64,000 bases of DNA, taken from contig QCHR01000002.1 of the NCBI GenBank assembly GCA_003277985.1, positions 1 through 64,000 of the forward strand. Direction: 5' to 3'. The stretch is from Prochlorococcus sp. AG-402-G06 (GTDB taxonomy: Bacteria; Cyanobacteriota; Cyanobacteriia; PCC-6307; Cyanobiaceae). The first letter of the stretch is position 1, and each line of letters starts with the position of its first letter. Below, piece after piece: positions 46,175-55,706 of this stretch. Below the pieces are notes generated by a model, which was given only the letters and a program-made list of their open reading frames with translations, did no database searches and was not told where the DNA came from. Made by a program: the position numbers and the translations under genes.

Positions 46175-47191
46175 TTATTTATTTACATGAATAGTTTGGG
46201 TTGGATATGCAAAGTTAATATTTTCATTTTGGAACTTCTTCATTATTTCTAGATTAATTTCTTGCTGAGCTGTCATCGCTTGTAGGTAATCACTTGTGGG
46301 AATGTAATAGACAAGTTCAAAATCAAGACTGCTATTTGCGAATTCGATAAAATGACATCGGTCGAAGATCGCATTTTCAGTTTTGTCAACGATATTTTTT
46401 ATCATCATAGGTATGCTTTTTGTTTGTTCATAGGTAGTTTCATAGACCACACCTAATTTATGGACCAGCCTTCTTTTCTTCATCTCAGCATAATTTGATA
46501 TTACTCCATTTGTGAGTCTGCTATTGCTCATTACTATTGCTTCTCCGTTAATACTTCTTAAGCGTGTGGACCTGACACCTACACTCTCAACTTTTGCCCA
46601 GATCCCATCAATATGAATAAATTGTCCACTTTGAAATGGTTTATCTAGGAGGATAGTTATGTACTCGAAGAACTCTTGAACTGGCTCCTTTAAGGCTAGT
46701 CCAGCTCCTATGCCTCCTGCACTTAGAAGAGCCCAAATGGCTGCCATTTGGACACCCATGTTTTGAAGATAAAAGATAACTCCTAGACTCCAAACAGATG
46801 CCCCAACCATTGGACTAAGTGAACGAATCATTTCACTGATAGATTGATCATTGATTTTGCTTGCCCACCTTTGTATTATTTTTAAGAACACCCTATTTAC
46901 AAATCTGACAATATAAATAAGACATAGAAACTTACTAATACCAATTAATGTTTTATCTACTATTCCACCAATGAGTAAGACTTTCCATGCAACTATGAAA
47001 CTTAAGATAAATCCTAAAGGTTTAATAGTCTCAATTAAAAGAGTAGCTATGTAGTCATCAGTTTTGCTTTGTGTTGCAGAGGTTATTCTTCTAAGAACTT
47101 TTTTTAAGATTTTTGGACTTACGAGGGAAAAAATGGAACCAACCAAAAAAGTAAGTAAAGAAATAATTATGTTTTTATAAAAATCATCCAT
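46175..47191 (-). CDS. Small-conductance mechanosensitive channel (MscS family)
   Basis: 338 residues: about four N-terminal hydrophobic segments, the pore-lining helix region GAGLALKEPVQEFFEYI near 160-180, and a beta-rich vestibule with FIHIDGIWAKVESVGVRSTR and VMSNSRLTNGVISNYA. Opens under membrane tension to release osmolytes after hypo-osmotic shock. It lies in the same 20-kb block as the compatible-solute-like genes at 49.5-53.6 kb, but on its own transcription unit. Confidence 0.88.
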   Translation of the reverse strand: MDDFYKNIIISLLTFLVGSIFSLVSPKILKKVLRRITSATQSKTDDYIATLLIETIKPLGFILSFIVAWKVLLIGGIVDKTLIGISKFLCLIYIVRFVNRVFLKIIQRWASKINDQSISEMIRSLSPMVGASVWSLGVIFYLQNMGVQMAAIWALLSAGGIGAGLALKEPVQEFFEYITILLDKPFQSGQFIHIDGIWAKVESVGVRSTRLRSINGEAIVMSNSRLTNGVISNYAEMKKRRLVHKLGVVYETTYEQTKSIPMMIKNIVDKTENAIFDRCHFIEFANSSLDFELVYYIPTSDYLQAMTAQQEINLEIMKKFQNENINFAYPTQTIHVNK

Positions 47192-48476: not shown

Positions 48477-49421
48477 TTAATTTAATTCTCCACCACAGCT
48501 TGAACCAGCTCCAGCAGTACAGCCAAAACAATGATTTCCTATTGAAATAGGATTATTATTTAAAGATACAAGTGGAATCAATAGATCATCCAAATGCTTA
48601 ACGATTCCTTTTCTCTTCATTCCAAGTTGTTGGTTGAAATCACAATCATATAAATACCCTCTCCAGTCAACACTAAGAGTTGTTCTACACATTACTGAGT
48701 TGAGATTTGCTGGGTTATGATTATCTTTAAGTAGTTTATTATACTCTTCTAGTTTCCCAATTACCTTTAAATAGTTTTCATATCTATTAATTGGCATATT
48801 AGCTAAAACAAATAAATTAGAGAAGAAAATACCATACCTATCTTTTAGTTCACGTCTATAAGTATCTTCTAATTCTTTCTGGGATGGTGGAAGTTGTGGA
48901 CCACTTGGGTTATAGACTAGATTCAAAGGTAGACCTTTATCTTTTATGCCATAACCGAGAGAATTAAGTTGTTTAAGAGCTAATAAACTTTTTTCAAAAA
49001 CACCATTTCCTCGTTGTTTGTCTACATTGTCTTCGAGATAACAAGGCAGTGATGCAGTTATTTGTACTTTATTTGAGGCTAAAAAACTTGCTAAATTTTC
49101 ATAACCTGGTTCTGTAAGGATTGTTAAATTACATCTGTCCATTACTTCAACATTAAGTCTGCGTACTTCTTCCACTAATTGTTTAAACTTAGGATGAAGT
49201 TCAGGGGCCCCTCCAGTAATATCTAGAAGCTTTATATTGTTTGCTTTTATAACTTTAGGTATAAGTTTTATGACTTCATCACTCATCATTTCTGTTCTGC
49301 TTGGACTAGAATTAACATGACAATGACTGCATGCTTGGTTACATTTATAACCTATATTTATTTGCAAAGTATCAAGATAATCTCTCTTGATTTTTGGGAA
49401 TTTTGTTTTATTTATCTCCAT
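48477..49421 (-). CDS. ArsS-like radical SAM protein
   Basis: 314 residues. The radical-SAM cluster is Cys27, Cys31, Cys34 (CNQACSHC), followed by a TGGAPELHP GGE-type motif, and the C-terminal part has DCDFNQQLGM and the signature CFGCTAGAGSSCGG for auxiliary cluster ligands, as in arsenosugar biosynthesis protein ArsS (DUF3641). Members make arsenosugars from dimethylarsenite; no ArsM methyltransferase is in this window. It is downstream of the phosphatase gene on the same strand (78 bp apart). Confidence 0.82.
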   Translation of the reverse strand: MEINKTKFPKIKRDYLDTLQINIGYKCNQACSHCHVNSSPSRTEMMSDEVIKLIPKVIKANNIKLLDITGGAPELHPKFKQLVEEVRRLNVEVMDRCNLTILTEPGYENLASFLASNKVQITASLPCYLEDNVDKQRGNGVFEKSLLALKQLNSLGYGIKDKGLPLNLVYNPSGPQLPPSQKELEDTYRRELKDRYGIFFSNLFVLANMPINRYENYLKVIGKLEEYNKLLKDNHNPANLNSVMCRTTLSVDWRGYLYDCDFNQQLGMKRKGIVKHLDDLLIPLVSLNNNPISIGNHCFGCTAGAGSSCGGELN

Positions 49422-49499: not shown

Positions 49500-50699
49500 C
49501 TAATAGTTACTAGCTAATTGTTTAAACCACTCTATATATTCTTTTGGACCATCATTAATAATCATATTGAATTTTAAATCATCATTTGGGTCACTAATGC
49601 CTGTCATATCAGTTCCACTAATTCTTGGTCTTAATACTTGATTATTGCAGCTGTTAACAAATACAACTTGATTCTCTTTCTTATATGATTCTCCCAACCT
49701 TTGGATCAATGTTAAGAAACCTCTATCACTTCCACCCCTTAACCAAGAATTATTTTTATTATCTTTAATCGAGGTTACTGTATCGCCAACACCTACTAGC
49801 AGTGGCATTTGATCACTAGGAATTTTATCTCGGCATAGTTCTATTAATTTTTTATGTGTCTTAGGGGCATTCCTGACGTTAAAGGTTTCTCCGAAAGGAT
49901 AAATGCCAGTTTTGTTTGCTATGTATTTATTTAATAACACTAAAAGACCTGCTTCTTTTATTGCGCCTTTGATAATGAACTGAATATCTGTTGTCCCAAA
50001 TTCATTTTTAGTTGAATATTTCATTATTTCTTTGCCATCTCTTATCCCTAGATTTGGCATCAAATGCAGATAAAAAGAATTATCTAATCCAAAATTTTTA
50101 GAATCTTCAAGTAAATTATTCATTATTTTTTCCATTATCAATTGCAACTTTTTCACTTTTTGAAAATCATTTTTAACGTAATTAAAAATTCCATTAAAGT
50201 TTAAAGTGGGAGTAAAGCGCGTATCACATACAGCTACATCAATTAATTTATTTCTTAATTCATCTGAAAGATTTGGTAAGAATGTTGTTAACTCATTAGT
50301 TAACATTGATCTCATCATTGTTGGGACTTCTGCTAAAAAGTCAATCTCATCATCTTTGAGCCCTGGATGGGATAAATTACTAAATTTATCTTGAAATTCA
50401 ACTCCACATGCCGCAAGGCCAGGTAAGTAAAAGCCATTCTCTTTCGCTGTTGTTTTTGAATTTAGTGCTTTCTCTACTAAACGGTTAACACCTCTTCTGC
50501 CTTCATGTTCGCCGCAGGTTAGGACTGCAAACTTCTCTCTTAATCTTGAAACGTCCTTCACATATTCTTTGCTGATCTCTCTTTTGAGTGGGTCTTGAAC
50601 TAGTGGGATACAAACGCCGTCAAGATCCTGAACTATGAGGATATTTTGTTCATTTATTATAGTGTTAATAACTTCTTCTCTCGTCTTAAACATTTTCAT
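49500..50699 (-). CDS. stpA: Glucosylglycerol-phosphate phosphatase-like (StpA/GgpP family)
   Basis: 399 residues matching the StpA family in pattern: LIVQDLDGVCIPLVQDPL (23-40, motif I Asp), LTCGEHEGRRGV, GLYLP-like YLPGLAACGVEF, YLHLMPNLGIRD, GTTDIQF and LLVGVGDTVTS (motif with metal Asp). In salt-tolerant cyanobacteria StpA removes phosphate from glucosylglycerol phosphate, the last step of this osmolyte. No ggpS synthase is in this window, so the substrate here is inferred. It diverges from the two plus-strand genes that follow across a 163-bp promoter region. Confidence 0.78.
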   Translation of the reverse strand: MKMFKTREEVINTIINEQNILIVQDLDGVCIPLVQDPLKREISKEYVKDVSRLREKFAVLTCGEHEGRRGVNRLVEKALNSKTTAKENGFYLPGLAACGVEFQDKFSNLSHPGLKDDEIDFLAEVPTMMRSMLTNELTTFLPNLSDELRNKLIDVAVCDTRFTPTLNFNGIFNYVKNDFQKVKKLQLIMEKIMNNLLEDSKNFGLDNSFYLHLMPNLGIRDGKEIMKYSTKNEFGTTDIQFIIKGAIKEAGLLVLLNKYIANKTGIYPFGETFNVRNAPKTHKKLIELCRDKIPSDQMPLLVGVGDTVTSIKDNKNNSWLRGGSDRGFLTLIQRLGESYKKENQVVFVNSCNNQVLRPRISGTDMTGISDPNDDLKFNMIINDGPKEYIEWFKQLASNY

Positions 50700-50739
50700 A
50701 AAAGAAGTATTTAAATATTAGCTTACTCTAGTTCTAATT

Positions 50740-50754
50740 AAGAAACACTTTCTT
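50740..50754. promoter_or_regulatory. Inverted repeat in the divergent promoter region
   Basis: AAGAAA, CAC, TTTCTT (6-bp arms) lies between the divergent starts at 50699 and 50863, about 41 bases from the phosphatase start. It may be an operator shared by both directions. AT-rich surroundings make short dyads likely by chance, so the call is weak. Confidence 0.25.
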
Positions 50755-50862
50755 GATAGTTCTTATTCTTAAATAAGTATATAGATATATATTCAGTATA
50801 ATAAAAACTATTTTTAAAAGTTTCTTATTATTGTATATAATATAATTGAATTAAAATGAACT

Positions 50863-52404
50863 GTGTTTGATAAGAATTTACGTAATAGCTTCTTTGCAGA
50901 GCCTTATTCAAGTGAGCGTATAGCCATAAGAATTAAAGAGGTTTTGAATGGAAAAGTTGGATTTTACAGTGTTGGATTATATCCTGCCTCTCTTGCTTAT
51001 AACTGTGCCTTGCAAAATGATGGCTTTAACATTCTTTTAGCACCTAGAGATGGTAGGGAACTATTTGGAGCTTTTTCTACTGTTGATCTCTCTGAAATGG
51101 ATGACGGTATAAAAAATAAAATTGAATCTATGGCAATTTCTAATAATGAAAAATCGGGCAGATATAATACGCTTAAGGATTTAATACTTAACTGTGAATT
51201 AGTTGTTTTGAGTTCAAATAGTAAACATATAATAAACGACGTTAAGTTAGCATTTAAACTCAAAAAAGAGCTTAATCGAGATAATGTTTTAATTGCATGC
51301 TTGGTTGGATCATTTTGTCATGATTCTAGTTTAAATGAATCTTTTGTGCTGTGCGAAAAATTAAATAATCTTGCCTTTTTTTCAGGGTTTCATCGACACG
51401 GAGCTCTTCGCAATCCATTAGATAGCTTTACTGCTAATTTTTGTCATCCAGACGCTTTGAATGCAATATTAGGTGCGAAATTATTAAATAAGATTTCACC
51501 AAATATTCAAGTTTCTGCAGGTATTCATAACGTTGAGGGTCAATATATAAAAGCTGCTAAAAATATATCTTCAATATTAGCAGGTTTTGGTCATACTTTT
51601 CATAAGAATAATCCTGGATTGCTACCAACTTTATTAACTCTATTATTAGATCAATGCCTAGATCAGGCAGCCTATGTTTCCATGAGTCGAACAGATAGAG
51701 AGCATTTATATACAAAACAACCTTTTCCTATTACTGAACTTGGATATAGCGTCCAACGTATAGAGGCGTCATATCTTAAGGATGGAGATTTTGTACAAGT
51801 AAGAGATCATACTTTTACCCAATTGACAGCTATGGTTGCCGATGTGAGAGGAAGCATGATGTTACCTGTAAGCGGTAAACCCACTAGAAATTTTCAAGCT
51901 GGTGAAGTCCTGGCTGAGATGATGATTGAGTATAAAAGATGCCCAAAAGGTGTTGATGAGTTTATAGAATGGTGCGAAAGATCTGGTCTTAAACGTGGAG
52001 CATTAGAAGGAATAAATTCTTTAAATTATTGGCCTGACATCCTAAGAAAGTATTCAATACCCTTGAATAATTCCTCAATGATTAATCTTTTATATGTGTG
52101 TATAATGGGCCCTGATGAGATTAAAGAATATGTTTATAATGTTATGACAAGTAGCCGCGAACTGGCTAACTATTGTCAGGAATCTGTTAAGTCATTACAG
52201 ACTAAGAAAATATCTGAAGCACTGAATAATTTCCATTTAAAAACTTCTATAGATTTTGTAACAGATTCACTAACTAATTACGATAAATCGTTTTTTGAAT
52301 TAAATGAGATTGACTTTTATAATACACTAGGTCCAGAAGATAAGCCTATTTATAATAAAGTTATTGATTATATCGAAACTTATTTAACAGAAGCTAATCT
52401 ATAA
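50863..52404 (+). CDS. Unrecognised Rossmann-like protein, dehydrogenase-like layout
   Basis: 513 residues, GTG start at 50863, not recognised by name. The N-terminal part reads KVGFYSVGLYPASLAYNC (31-48) then ELVVLSSNSKHIINDV and NVLIACLVGSFCHD, a nucleotide-binding alpha/beta layout like glycerol-3-phosphate dehydrogenase GpsA. The C-terminal half is helical, with ADVRGSMMLPVSG and RNFQAGEVLAEM. If the layout is real it might act on a three-carbon phosphate; this is inference. It starts opposite the StpA-like gene and ends 11 bp before the kinase-like gene. Confidence 0.65.
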   Translation: MFDKNLRNSFFAEPYSSERIAIRIKEVLNGKVGFYSVGLYPASLAYNCALQNDGFNILLAPRDGRELFGAFSTVDLSEMDDGIKNKIESMAISNNEKSGRYNTLKDLILNCELVVLSSNSKHIINDVKLAFKLKKELNRDNVLIACLVGSFCHDSSLNESFVLCEKLNNLAFFSGFHRHGALRNPLDSFTANFCHPDALNAILGAKLLNKISPNIQVSAGIHNVEGQYIKAAKNISSILAGFGHTFHKNNPGLLPTLLTLLLDQCLDQAAYVSMSRTDREHLYTKQPFPITELGYSVQRIEASYLKDGDFVQVRDHTFTQLTAMVADVRGSMMLPVSGKPTRNFQAGEVLAEMMIEYKRCPKGVDEFIEWCERSGLKRGALEGINSLNYWPDILRKYSIPLNNSSMINLLYVCIMGPDEIKEYVYNVMTSSRELANYCQESVKSLQTKKISEALNNFHLKTSIDFVTDSLTNYDKSFFELNEIDFYNTLGPEDKPIYNKVIDYIETYLTEANL

Positions 52405-52414
52405 TATAAACTCT

Positions 52415-53578
52415 ATGGATTTTGAAAAAATAAATTTAGTTACTTGCAATTTCTTTGCTAATAGTAAATTATTAAATATAGATTTTATAGATTCTGGATT
52501 GATAAATAAAACGTATGTCATTGAACATTTAACTAATGGAAAAAAGTCTAAATTTATTTTGCAGTGTCTTAGTAATATATTTGAATCTTATGAGAGGGTT
52601 AATATGAATCATATCTTAATAACTGATCATATGAAAAATAAAATAAAAAGAAAATATTTTAAGTCTGAGAAACAAAGATGGGAGCTTCCATTTTTAATTA
52701 AGTGTAATTCTAATAACCTTTTTATTCTATCTTTTAGCTCAGATAAATGGCGAGCGATGGAATATATAGATGATAGTGTTAGCTTTGATATTTTAGAAGA
52801 CAAAAAAATGGCTTATCAAACAGGAATTGGTCTTGCTAAGTTCCATTCTATATGTTCCGATATCGACCTTAAAAAATTAGAAAATACTATTAAAGATTTT
52901 CATAATACAAAGCATTATATAGCACAATTTAAAAGTATGATTAGAGATTATAACTTTTTAAAATTAGACGATAAAACAAATAAAAGAGTTCAAAAATTAA
53001 TTTTTAGCCTATCTAAGCATATGTTATATGTTGAATATTTATTAGAATCTTTAAAGGGAAAATCCATACAACTTAGTTTAATACATGGAGATCCTAAATT
53101 AAGCAATTTTCTTTTTGATATTAAATATAAATATGTTGTCTCATTAATAGATTTGGATACTGTATCATCTGGCTATCTGCTTACTGATTTAGCCGATTGT
53201 ATACGTTCAATTTGTAATAATGCTGGAGAGGATCCAGATAATATAGATAATGTATACTTTGATATTAACTGTTGTAGGTATTTTCTAAATGGCTATTTCT
53301 CAACAACTAATCAAAAGGCTTGTTTCTACTTTGGTCTCCTTCCAGAATTTATTTATATGATAATAATTGAATTAACTATCAGATTCCTGACTGACTTTTT
53401 GCAATCAAATAATCACTTCAAAGTAAAATATCAAACCCACAATTTATATAGAGCAGAGGTTCAATACCGATTACTTTCTAGTTTAGTTATTCAAATTCCT
53501 ACTTTGTCAAATGTACTGCATGAAATTGGGATTTCATCAAATCCAACTTTTGTCTCAGATGTACAAAAAATTGTTTAG
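52415..53578 (+). CDS. APH/anomeric-kinase-like phosphotransferase
   Basis: 387 residues, AT-rich. The core HGDPKLSNFLF (224-234; catalytic Asp226, Asn231) and SLIDLDTVSSGYLLTDLAD (243-261; metal Asp) are the aminoglycoside-phosphotransferase-fold signature, and the pattern around DLDTV resembles sugar-1-kinases such as NahK. The acceptor is unknown. It follows the unrecognised protein by 11 bp, so both are on one transcript. Together with the divergent StpA-like phosphatase it suggests a small phosphosugar or polyol pathway. Confidence 0.72.
   Translation: MDFEKINLVTCNFFANSKLLNIDFIDSGLINKTYVIEHLTNGKKSKFILQCLSNIFESYERVNMNHILITDHMKNKIKRKYFKSEKQRWELPFLIKCNSNNLFILSFSSDKWRAMEYIDDSVSFDILEDKKMAYQTGIGLAKFHSICSDIDLKKLENTIKDFHNTKHYIAQFKSMIRDYNFLKLDDKTNKRVQKLIFSLSKHMLYVEYLLESLKGKSIQLSLIHGDPKLSNFLFDIKYKYVVSLIDLDTVSSGYLLTDLADCIRSICNNAGEDPDNIDNVYFDINCCRYFLNGYFSTTNQKACFYFGLLPEFIYMIIIELTIRFLTDFLQSNNHFKVKYQTHNLYRAEVQYRLLSSLVIQIPTLSNVLHEIGISSNPTFVSDVQKIV

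Positions 53579-53632: not shown

Positions 53633-55706
<2,074 letters not shown>

Follow-up and report, generated by a model that had tools for sequence, protein, structure and literature searches.

A highly diverged protein paired with StpA as a probable replacement for GpsA in marine picocyanobacteria

What does the large protein encoded opposite a glucosylglycerol-phosphate phosphatase in Prochlorococcus do? The DNA considered here, called the window, is a stretch of 64,000 nucleotides from Prochlorococcus sp. AG-402-G06 (contig QCHR01000002.1 of assembly GCA_003277985.1, positions 1 to 64,000). A minus-strand gene (49500..50699) encodes StpA, a 399-residue phosphatase of the haloacid dehalogenase (HAD) type that belongs to the StpA/GgpP, or glucosylglycerol-phosphate phosphatase, family. 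Facing it on the plus strand are the gene in question (50863..52404), which has a GTG start and whose 513-residue product is called X513 here, and a gene for a sugar kinase. An earlier, sequence-only reading of this DNA placed all three open reading frames correctly and gave the right length, 163 bp, for the gap between the divergent genes.

X513 is probably a highly diverged NAD(P)H-dependent dihydroxyacetone phosphate reductase, that is, an NAD(P)-dependent sn-glycerol 3-phosphate (G3P) dehydrogenase of the GpsA kind with a C-terminal extension, which is tied to glucosylglycerol and has taken the place of GpsA. The lines of evidence are the predicted fold, a sub-threshold match to the GpsA domain PF07479, a pattern of replacement of GpsA across genomes, and a link to StpA and to a GgpS gene cluster. 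That X513 works like GpsA is well supported by these observations and by the modelled structure, though it is unproven.

Fold and sequence of X513

Structure prediction places X513 among the G3P dehydrogenases. The AlphaFold model, made from 37 sequences, has a predicted local distance difference test (pLDDT) score of 81.9 and is weak at residues 1-5 and 291-318. It shows a whole GpsA-type fold, with a Rossmann domain and a helical C-terminal domain, in agreement with the GpsA-like layout that the earlier reading had ascribed to the protein. The first 16 VIA-align matches of the model are NAD-dependent G3P dehydrogenases, with Z scores of 28.2-21.4 over 297-336 residues. The best of these is Coxiella GpsA (3k96; Z 28.2, 308/325 residues, root-mean-square deviation 3.0), and the next family, ketopantoate reductase, follows after a clear gap at Z 14.8. 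Foldseek ranks 1-12 are G3P dehydrogenases throughout (E 4e-8 to 3e-6). The predicted fold thus covers nearly the whole chain of GpsA or GPD1, and in most of the 16 matches about 65-75 residues of X513 extend past the last aligned one.

The evidence from sequence for homology between X513 and GpsA is thin, yet it points in the same direction as the fold. Of all Pfam families, only PF07479, which describes the C-terminal domain of G3P dehydrogenases, is matched by more than one of the 37 X513 members. It appears in 6 of them, always below the cut-off (best E 0.003, with 18.2 bits where 25 are required), and a rescan of 10 members gave a match in 3. The SRN motif of GpsA aligns with R342-N343 of X513 (T-R-N) in two MAFFT modes and in hhalign, and both residues are invariant in the 37 members. 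Three further invariant residues, K230, K233, and N234, resemble the ALKN motif by eye. Proof of homology by sequence comparison on its own was also attempted and given up, as the comparisons failed or were weak.

Several results weigh against the assignment, and most of them lie in the sequence. X513 reaches the cut-off of no Pfam or NCBIfam family; it is outside the GpsA family as Pfam defines it (PF01210 plus PF07479), and its sequence has no meaningful match among the PDB chains at E values up to 1. Identity in the 16 best VIA-align rows is 11-15%, and normalisation by query length gives the Foldseek matches modest TM-scores of 0.34-0.48. Full-length profile comparisons of X513 with GpsA are not significant (best E 0.035); the C-terminal halves, picked after the full-length failure, give an E value of 0.00038 with a probability of just 36%. 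The GxGxWG loop of GpsA is absent, and in its place X513 has S36-V-G38-L-Y-P41 (S-x-G-L-Y-P), in which S36, G38, L39, and Y40 are invariant in the 37 members and P41 is nearly so. The lysine of the GpsA TKG motif is not conserved. The catalytic aspartate of the GDL motif is paired by hhalign with D327, which is invariant in the 37 members, and by both MAFFT runs with S331. Finally, no alignment registers the Lys-Asn of GpsA (ALKN/IKN) on K233-N234, so that this pairing is by eye only.

The altered nucleotide loop fits two other explanations. X513 might be a GpsA-fold dehydrogenase that acts on some other phosphorylated polyol or glycoside linked to StpA, with G3P in marine strains coming from an unrecognised enzyme, or from GlpK or a reversed GlpD where these are present. 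A distinct substrate would also suit the stretch of X513 that replaces, by eye, the SGPN motif of GpsA, in which H177-R178 is invariant and H179 nearly so. The best structural matches, however, are G3P dehydrogenases only, far above the next family, and we consider this explanation unlikely. Alternatively, the G-to-S and G-to-P changes in the loop could mean that X513 is a catalytically dead GpsA homologue, a sensor of NAD(P)H or G3P that controls StpA or GgpS. Retention of the Arg-Asn position and the invariance of many polar residues argue against a dead enzyme, an idea that we regard as highly improbable. If X513 is instead the G3P dehydrogenase proposed here, it would offer an enzyme of this type with an altered nucleotide-binding loop to study.

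Distribution of X513, GpsA, and other G3P routes

In a sample of 386 cyanobacterial genomes, drawn evenly from a larger group, X513 is present in 50, of which 49 belong to the window's family (58 genomes in the sample) and one, G070, to another family (one match at 3.2e-4, in G378, was left out of the count). The 9 family genomes without X513 make up three genera, with genomes of 2.1-3.7 Mb. The closest named relatives of the window protein are in the Prochlorococcus single cells AG-402-P16 (79% identity) and AG-402-P18 (78%). When one genome per bacterial and archaeal species was scanned, X513 turned up in 298 coding stretches, and the results on loci given below rest on the best 80 of these 298. 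Among the 80, 76 carry cyanobacterial titles, including Xenococcaceae, Acaryochloris, Leptolyngbya, Lyngbya, Zarconia, Synechococcus, Cyanobium, and Prochlorococcus. The other four (L105, L106, L108, and L128) are titled as metagenome-assembled genomes of Gammaproteobacteria and have picocyanobacterial gene order; they are probably binning errors. These four apart, X513 is confined to cyanobacteria among the best 80 of 298. Outside picocyanobacteria, its neighbours are common only within a lineage: three genes are shared by four Acaryochloris loci, and three others by three Xenococcaceae loci. Searches of phages, plasmids, and viral contigs found no X513 (57 stretches fitted a pattern, 0 were confirmed, and further searches gave no match), and PHROGs has no match at E values up to 0.1. 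A literature search by terms found no publication on X513; a search by locus tags, which were guessed, was also empty.

The distribution of GpsA is nearly the complement of this. GpsA was sought, with a profile made from six cyanobacterial GpsA proteins, in a follow-up set of 59 genomes composed of all 58 of the window's family and G070, and was found in 13 (one match in G070, at 4.7e-5, was not counted). The 13 comprise every one of the 9 genomes that lack X513, plus 4 (G181, G330, G370, and G070) from among the 50 that have it. The set consequently divides into 46 genomes with X513 only, 9 with GpsA only, 4 with both, and 0 with neither. Within the family, GpsA was not found in 46 of the 49 X513-bearing genomes, and the exclusion of one protein by the other has a Fisher value of 2e-8, which overstates independence because related genomes share their history. 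Over all 386 genomes, PF07479 matches 330 (329 over the cut-off) and misses 56, of which, by subtraction, 46 are the X513-only genomes; 36 of the 56 misses are not listed by name. The same subtraction leaves ten PF07479-less genomes outside the window's family, where gpsA may have decayed or been replaced as well. Unusually weak GpsA-domain matches occur in G183 and G268, two genomes (3.0 and 3.1 Mb) of genus g53 in another family, at E 5.6e-12 and 1.5e-4, and these may be further such cases.

Two features of these counts belong with the points against X513 as the successor of GpsA. The absence of GpsA comes from two kinds of search with a loose first look, and PF07479 was detected in 10 of 14 control genomes; one of the runs covered 19 genomes. 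In addition, the loss of gpsA may have been one event, in which case the counts are not independent. The physiological argument, that a source of G3P would otherwise be missing, is independent of genome counts.

Glycerolipids require sn-glycerol 3-phosphate, and the flavin adenine dinucleotide (FAD)-type G3P enzyme normally works in the oxidising direction. GlpK, GlpD, and GgpS each occur in an identical 24 of the 59 genomes. For GlpD, 53 genomes match at E <= 0.001, of which 24 do so strongly (E < 1e-30); matches at E >= 1.5e-5, which are short and fall on the FAD motif, were not counted. In the GgpS search with TIGR02398, G070 gave one weak match and G330 two fragments below the cut-off, which were likewise left uncounted. 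In this set, a genome thus has both glycerol use and glucosylglycerol synthesis or neither of the two. Twenty genomes have GgpS, GlpK, and GlpD and no detected GpsA, and are taken as marine Synechococcus. In a further 26 of the 59, all of which have X513 and StpA, the searches for GpsA, GlpD, GlpK, and GgpS were all empty; they include the window's own assembly, which is 86% complete, and two near-complete genomes of its genus. Given the need of lipids for G3P and the four empty searches, X513 is the only candidate G3P source found in these 26 Prochlorococcus-type genomes, where no search for other conceivable enzymes was made. Since GlpD was not found there, the FAD enzyme is not their source of G3P.

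Both alternatives introduced above would leave these 26 genomes with no known source of G3P, whether X513 acted on another substrate or were dead. We favor the proposal that sn-glycerol 3-phosphate is formed through the reduction of dihydroxyacetone phosphate by X513. Where a cyanobacterium also has GpsA, X513 would be an extra enzyme, a dedicated supply of G3P for glucosylglycerol. As GpsA was not found in most of the genomes with X513, a second role for the protein, in lipid synthesis, is probable: marine Synechococcus and Prochlorococcus would have lost gpsA, and X513 would have become their NAD(P)-type supplier of G3P to membrane lipids. For Prochlorococcus, where the searches for GgpS, GlpK, and GlpD were empty too, it would be the sole candidate source found.

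Several passages of published work bear on this step. In the relevant part of one survey, the FAD-type enzyme (GlpA) is named as the variant of marine and brackish strains and gpsA as that of freshwater strains, with both in SC5.2 (PMC9361551). A marine GlpA would favor the idea that X513 has a different substrate. SynAce01, which is described in a passage of another paper as having both glpA and gpsA (PMC6337551), also bears X513 (L096). For Prochlorococcus MED4, the passages seen of two metabolic-model papers name no gene for the G3P step (PMC5111396, PMC7900632); one of the two models has 60 gap-filled reactions, which that passage does not name. If X513 is a G3P dehydrogenase, it closes a gap in the making of the lipid backbone in the 26 Prochlorococcus-type genomes in which gpsA, glpD, and glpK were not found. 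It would also amend the view that marine strains rely on an FAD enzyme and would give metabolic models a gene for this step.

The pairing with StpA and the missing GgpS

StpA is present in exactly the same 50 of the 59 genomes as X513. In 48 of the 50 the two genes form a divergent pair no more than 12 kb apart, in 32 no more than 0.6 kb apart, and in the other 2 they are on different contigs. The earlier expectation that the phosphatase and the 513-residue protein are kept together in other genomes is borne out by this linkage. The family of G070 gives a second view of the pair: among its 27 genomes, 15 have X513, all with StpA, 8 have StpA without X513, and 4 have neither. StpA occurs in 23 of the 27, and the one-sided probability of the overlap is 0.028. 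Thus each of the 64 genomes with X513 that were checked has StpA as well, and the reverse does not hold. Within the stretch around X513, StpA is found in 40 of 55 picocyanobacterial loci and 0 of 25 others. These stretches are 3-21.5 kb long, several end at contig ends, and those that have the full 21.5 kb and no StpA are L095-L097, L099, L104, L114, L117, and L140.

So constant a pairing can be read in more than one way. The tie to StpA, which holds even where GpsA is kept, exceeds what a plain role in lipid synthesis would need; it counts against our proposal in that respect and for a dehydrogenase acting on another StpA-linked compound. Regulation of StpA by an inactive X513 would also account for a constant partner. 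A dedicated G3P supply for glucosylglycerol, as proposed here, is consistent with a gene cluster found in G181, G330, RCC307 (Synechococcus, L127), and L112. This cluster contains, in order, HSP90, GgpS, a binding protein, two permeases, an ATPase, X513, StpA, an amylase-family enzyme, GlpD, and GlpK; the second permease of the transporter (Ggt) is named by position, without a scan. MscS follows GlpK in G330 and L112, and no MscS gene was matched in the RCC307 stretch. That X513 is tied to glycerol phosphate and glucosylglycerol, as the sequence-only reading had proposed, gains support from the cluster. The system resembles the Synechocystis-type pair of StpA/GgpP and GgpS in that StpA passes the equivalog cut-off and that X513 and StpA lie inside a GgpS cluster in one lineage. 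There, X513 would make G3P, GgpS would add glucose, and StpA would remove the phosphate.

Published accounts touch on this route at several points. The portion of the survey that deals with it names just two freshwater picocyanobacteria, CH-040 and ATX 6A2, as having a ggpS-ggpP cluster (PMC9361551). Both strains are among the X513 matches (L097 and L104), and X513 has other neighbours in them. For a strain engineered to make glucosylglycerol, one report calls G3P dehydrogenase the rate-limiting step and describes a higher salt tolerance once such an enzyme was added; the yeast enzyme failed there (PMC8168540). This fits a dedicated G3P supply. Sponge-symbiont Synechococcus are reported to lack ggpS and stpA together with glpK and glpD (PMC12997750). 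The passages seen of a review do not mention X513 (PMC6753628).

The StpA of the window is a clear member of its family, with 535 bits to TIGR02399 (equivalog cut-off 365.5) and 579 bits to PF09506 (E 6.9e-174). D25, D27, K248, and D306 are among the residues invariant in 34 aligned members, and they include what we take to be HAD motif residues. The StpA model has a pLDDT of 94.5, and its best structural matches are trehalose-6-phosphate phosphatases (Z 22.3), which suggests that the substrate is a glycoside phosphate. A likeness is also seen to the osmotic G3P dehydrogenase of Dunaliella salina (6iuy), which is a HAD phosphatase fused to a G3P dehydrogenase and which is among the best structural matches of the X513 model, at Z 26.2. 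Here, in contrast, the two enzymes are encoded by separate divergent genes, and the matches of StpA to trehalose-6-phosphate phosphatases do not indicate free glycerol. Free glycerol as the product, as in yeast or Dunaliella, was considered and appears less likely on the same grounds, a ranking of matches in which no glycerol-3-phosphatase is among those listed for the StpA model.

Unlike the Synechocystis-type pathway, the pair stands without a detected GgpS in 26 StpA-bearing genomes. The earlier reading had noted that the window holds no GgpS, and the genome-wide search (TIGR02398, E <= 0.001) was also empty in the window's own assembly and in its two near-complete congeners, the three genomes of the genus that are among the 26. 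StpA looks active in genomes without GgpS, and its Prochlorococcus-type sequences retain the invariant residues. A change in StpA specificity was examined by comparing 16 Prochlorococcus-type proteins (the window's, 13 so named, and L128 and L139, assigned by gene order and likeness) with 18 others, the grouping being by name and likeness rather than by GgpS status. Sixteen alignment columns hold a single residue throughout the 18 and depart from it in four tenths or more of the 16 Prochlorococcus-type proteins; the differences are mostly conservative, D25, D27, K248, and D306 are unaffected, and on this comparison a changed specificity was rejected.

In the genomes without GgpS, either a synthase has yet to be recognised or StpA has another substrate. 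Prochlorococcus cells are regarded as the most numerous of all photosynthetic organisms, and an apparently intact glucosylglycerol-phosphate phosphatase in streamlined genomes where the known synthase is missing is a puzzle that the pairing with X513 makes testable. A bolder proposal is that X513 founds a new family of G3P dehydrogenases, so far seen in cyanobacteria only, which took over from GpsA in the ocean's most abundant phototrophs, and that in Prochlorococcus X513 and StpA also frame an unrecognised route to glucosylglycerol or a glycoside like it, in which a glucosyltransferase outside the GgpS family would join glucose to G3P made by X513. We hold this combined proposal to be possible but doubtful. 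Two passages weigh against the unrecognised route: one states that most Prochlorococcus lack key glucosylglycerol genes, a single exception coming from the Red Sea (PMC6753628), and the other, from a transcript study, regards glucosylglycerate and sucrose as the solutes that probably predominate (PMC9606707).

The kinase and the surrounding genes

Downstream of X513, the third gene of the locus (52415..53578, plus strand) encodes a 387-residue kinase of the aminoglycoside phosphotransferase (APH) fold. It begins 10 bp after X513, one less than the 11 bp reported earlier. The protein matches PF01636 with 47.5 bits (cut-off 23.2; E 2.6e-12), and its closest solved relatives are PDB entries for N-acetylhexosamine 1-kinase (NahK; E 2.3e-29 over 337 residues), so that it is a NahK-like sugar 1-kinase by likeness.

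In the sequence-only reading, the phosphatase, the dehydrogenase, and this kinase, as supplier of a sugar 1-phosphate, jointly made one phosphosugar or polyol solute. The position of the kinase favors such a three-gene pathway: of the 50 genomes with X513, 17 have the kinase gene 3' of X513 and co-oriented with it at a distance of up to 0.4 kb, and 29 have it there at up to 12 kb. Its distribution does not. The kinase is present in 42 of the 59 genomes, that is, in 33 of the 50 with X513 and in 9/9 of those without the pair, and it was not found in 17 of the 50 that keep X513 and StpA. Where X513 is absent from the genome or lies elsewhere in it, the kinase adjoins a different small gene, f12, in 9 of 10 stretches, and outside the genus the kinase is diverged, with 28-37% identity. 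Of the three-gene module, the part that joins StpA and X513 stands, and the part that adds the kinase falls. The kinase as a pathway member was rejected, as its distribution and neighbours are independent of X513 and StpA; it is a frequent positional neighbour outside the core pair, and a solute pathway of all three genes is very unlikely. The module shrinks to two genes and gains a wider meaning, that of a probable replacement of GpsA in marine picocyanobacteria.

The gene f12 (L051:14869-15486) belongs to a family of proteins of about 190-205 residues, and the one member scanned has no Pfam match. It stands beside the kinase in genomes with and without X513 (L178-L181, L183-L186, L188, and L190) and also 3' of the kinase in several X513 loci; it was not found beside the kinase of the window.

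The region is more AT-rich than the rest, as had been noted, with a GC fraction of 0.300 against 0.348 for the window. A value this low or lower occurs in 2 of 240 equal-size overlapping windows (step 250), and those 2 may overlap the stretch itself. The low GC comes mainly from the kinase (0.259) and the intergenic gap (0.166), and X513 (0.327) and StpA (0.325) are ordinary. A recent foreign island, considered from the AT-richness, was rejected because the gene order around StpA and X513 is common to other genera of the family and both genes have ordinary GC. The divergent AT-rich gap itself (50700..50862) had been called a shared promoter. Scanning finds a single overlapping pair of sigma-70-like sites on the plus strand (50813/50814-50841), and the scanned stretch holds 23 promoter-like sites against a mean of 23.9 in shuffled sequences; with no excess, the claim of a shared promoter is not upheld.

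Other genes border the locus. A 232-residue protein is encoded at 53633-54331 (+); it has no Pfam or NCBIfam family over the cut-off, and it precedes a metB-like gene in most mapped loci of the family. On the other side, an ArsS-type radical S-adenosylmethionine gene (48477-49421, minus strand; TIGR04167, 453 bits) adjoins StpA, as it does in most mapped picocyanobacterial loci. Beyond it, 2.3 kb from StpA, lies a gene for an MscS-type channel (46175-47191, minus strand), likewise found in most mapped Prochlorococcus-type loci. MscS also adjoins GlpK in the glucosylglycerol cluster of G330, L112, and L123, giving an osmotic neighbourhood in two gene arrangements.

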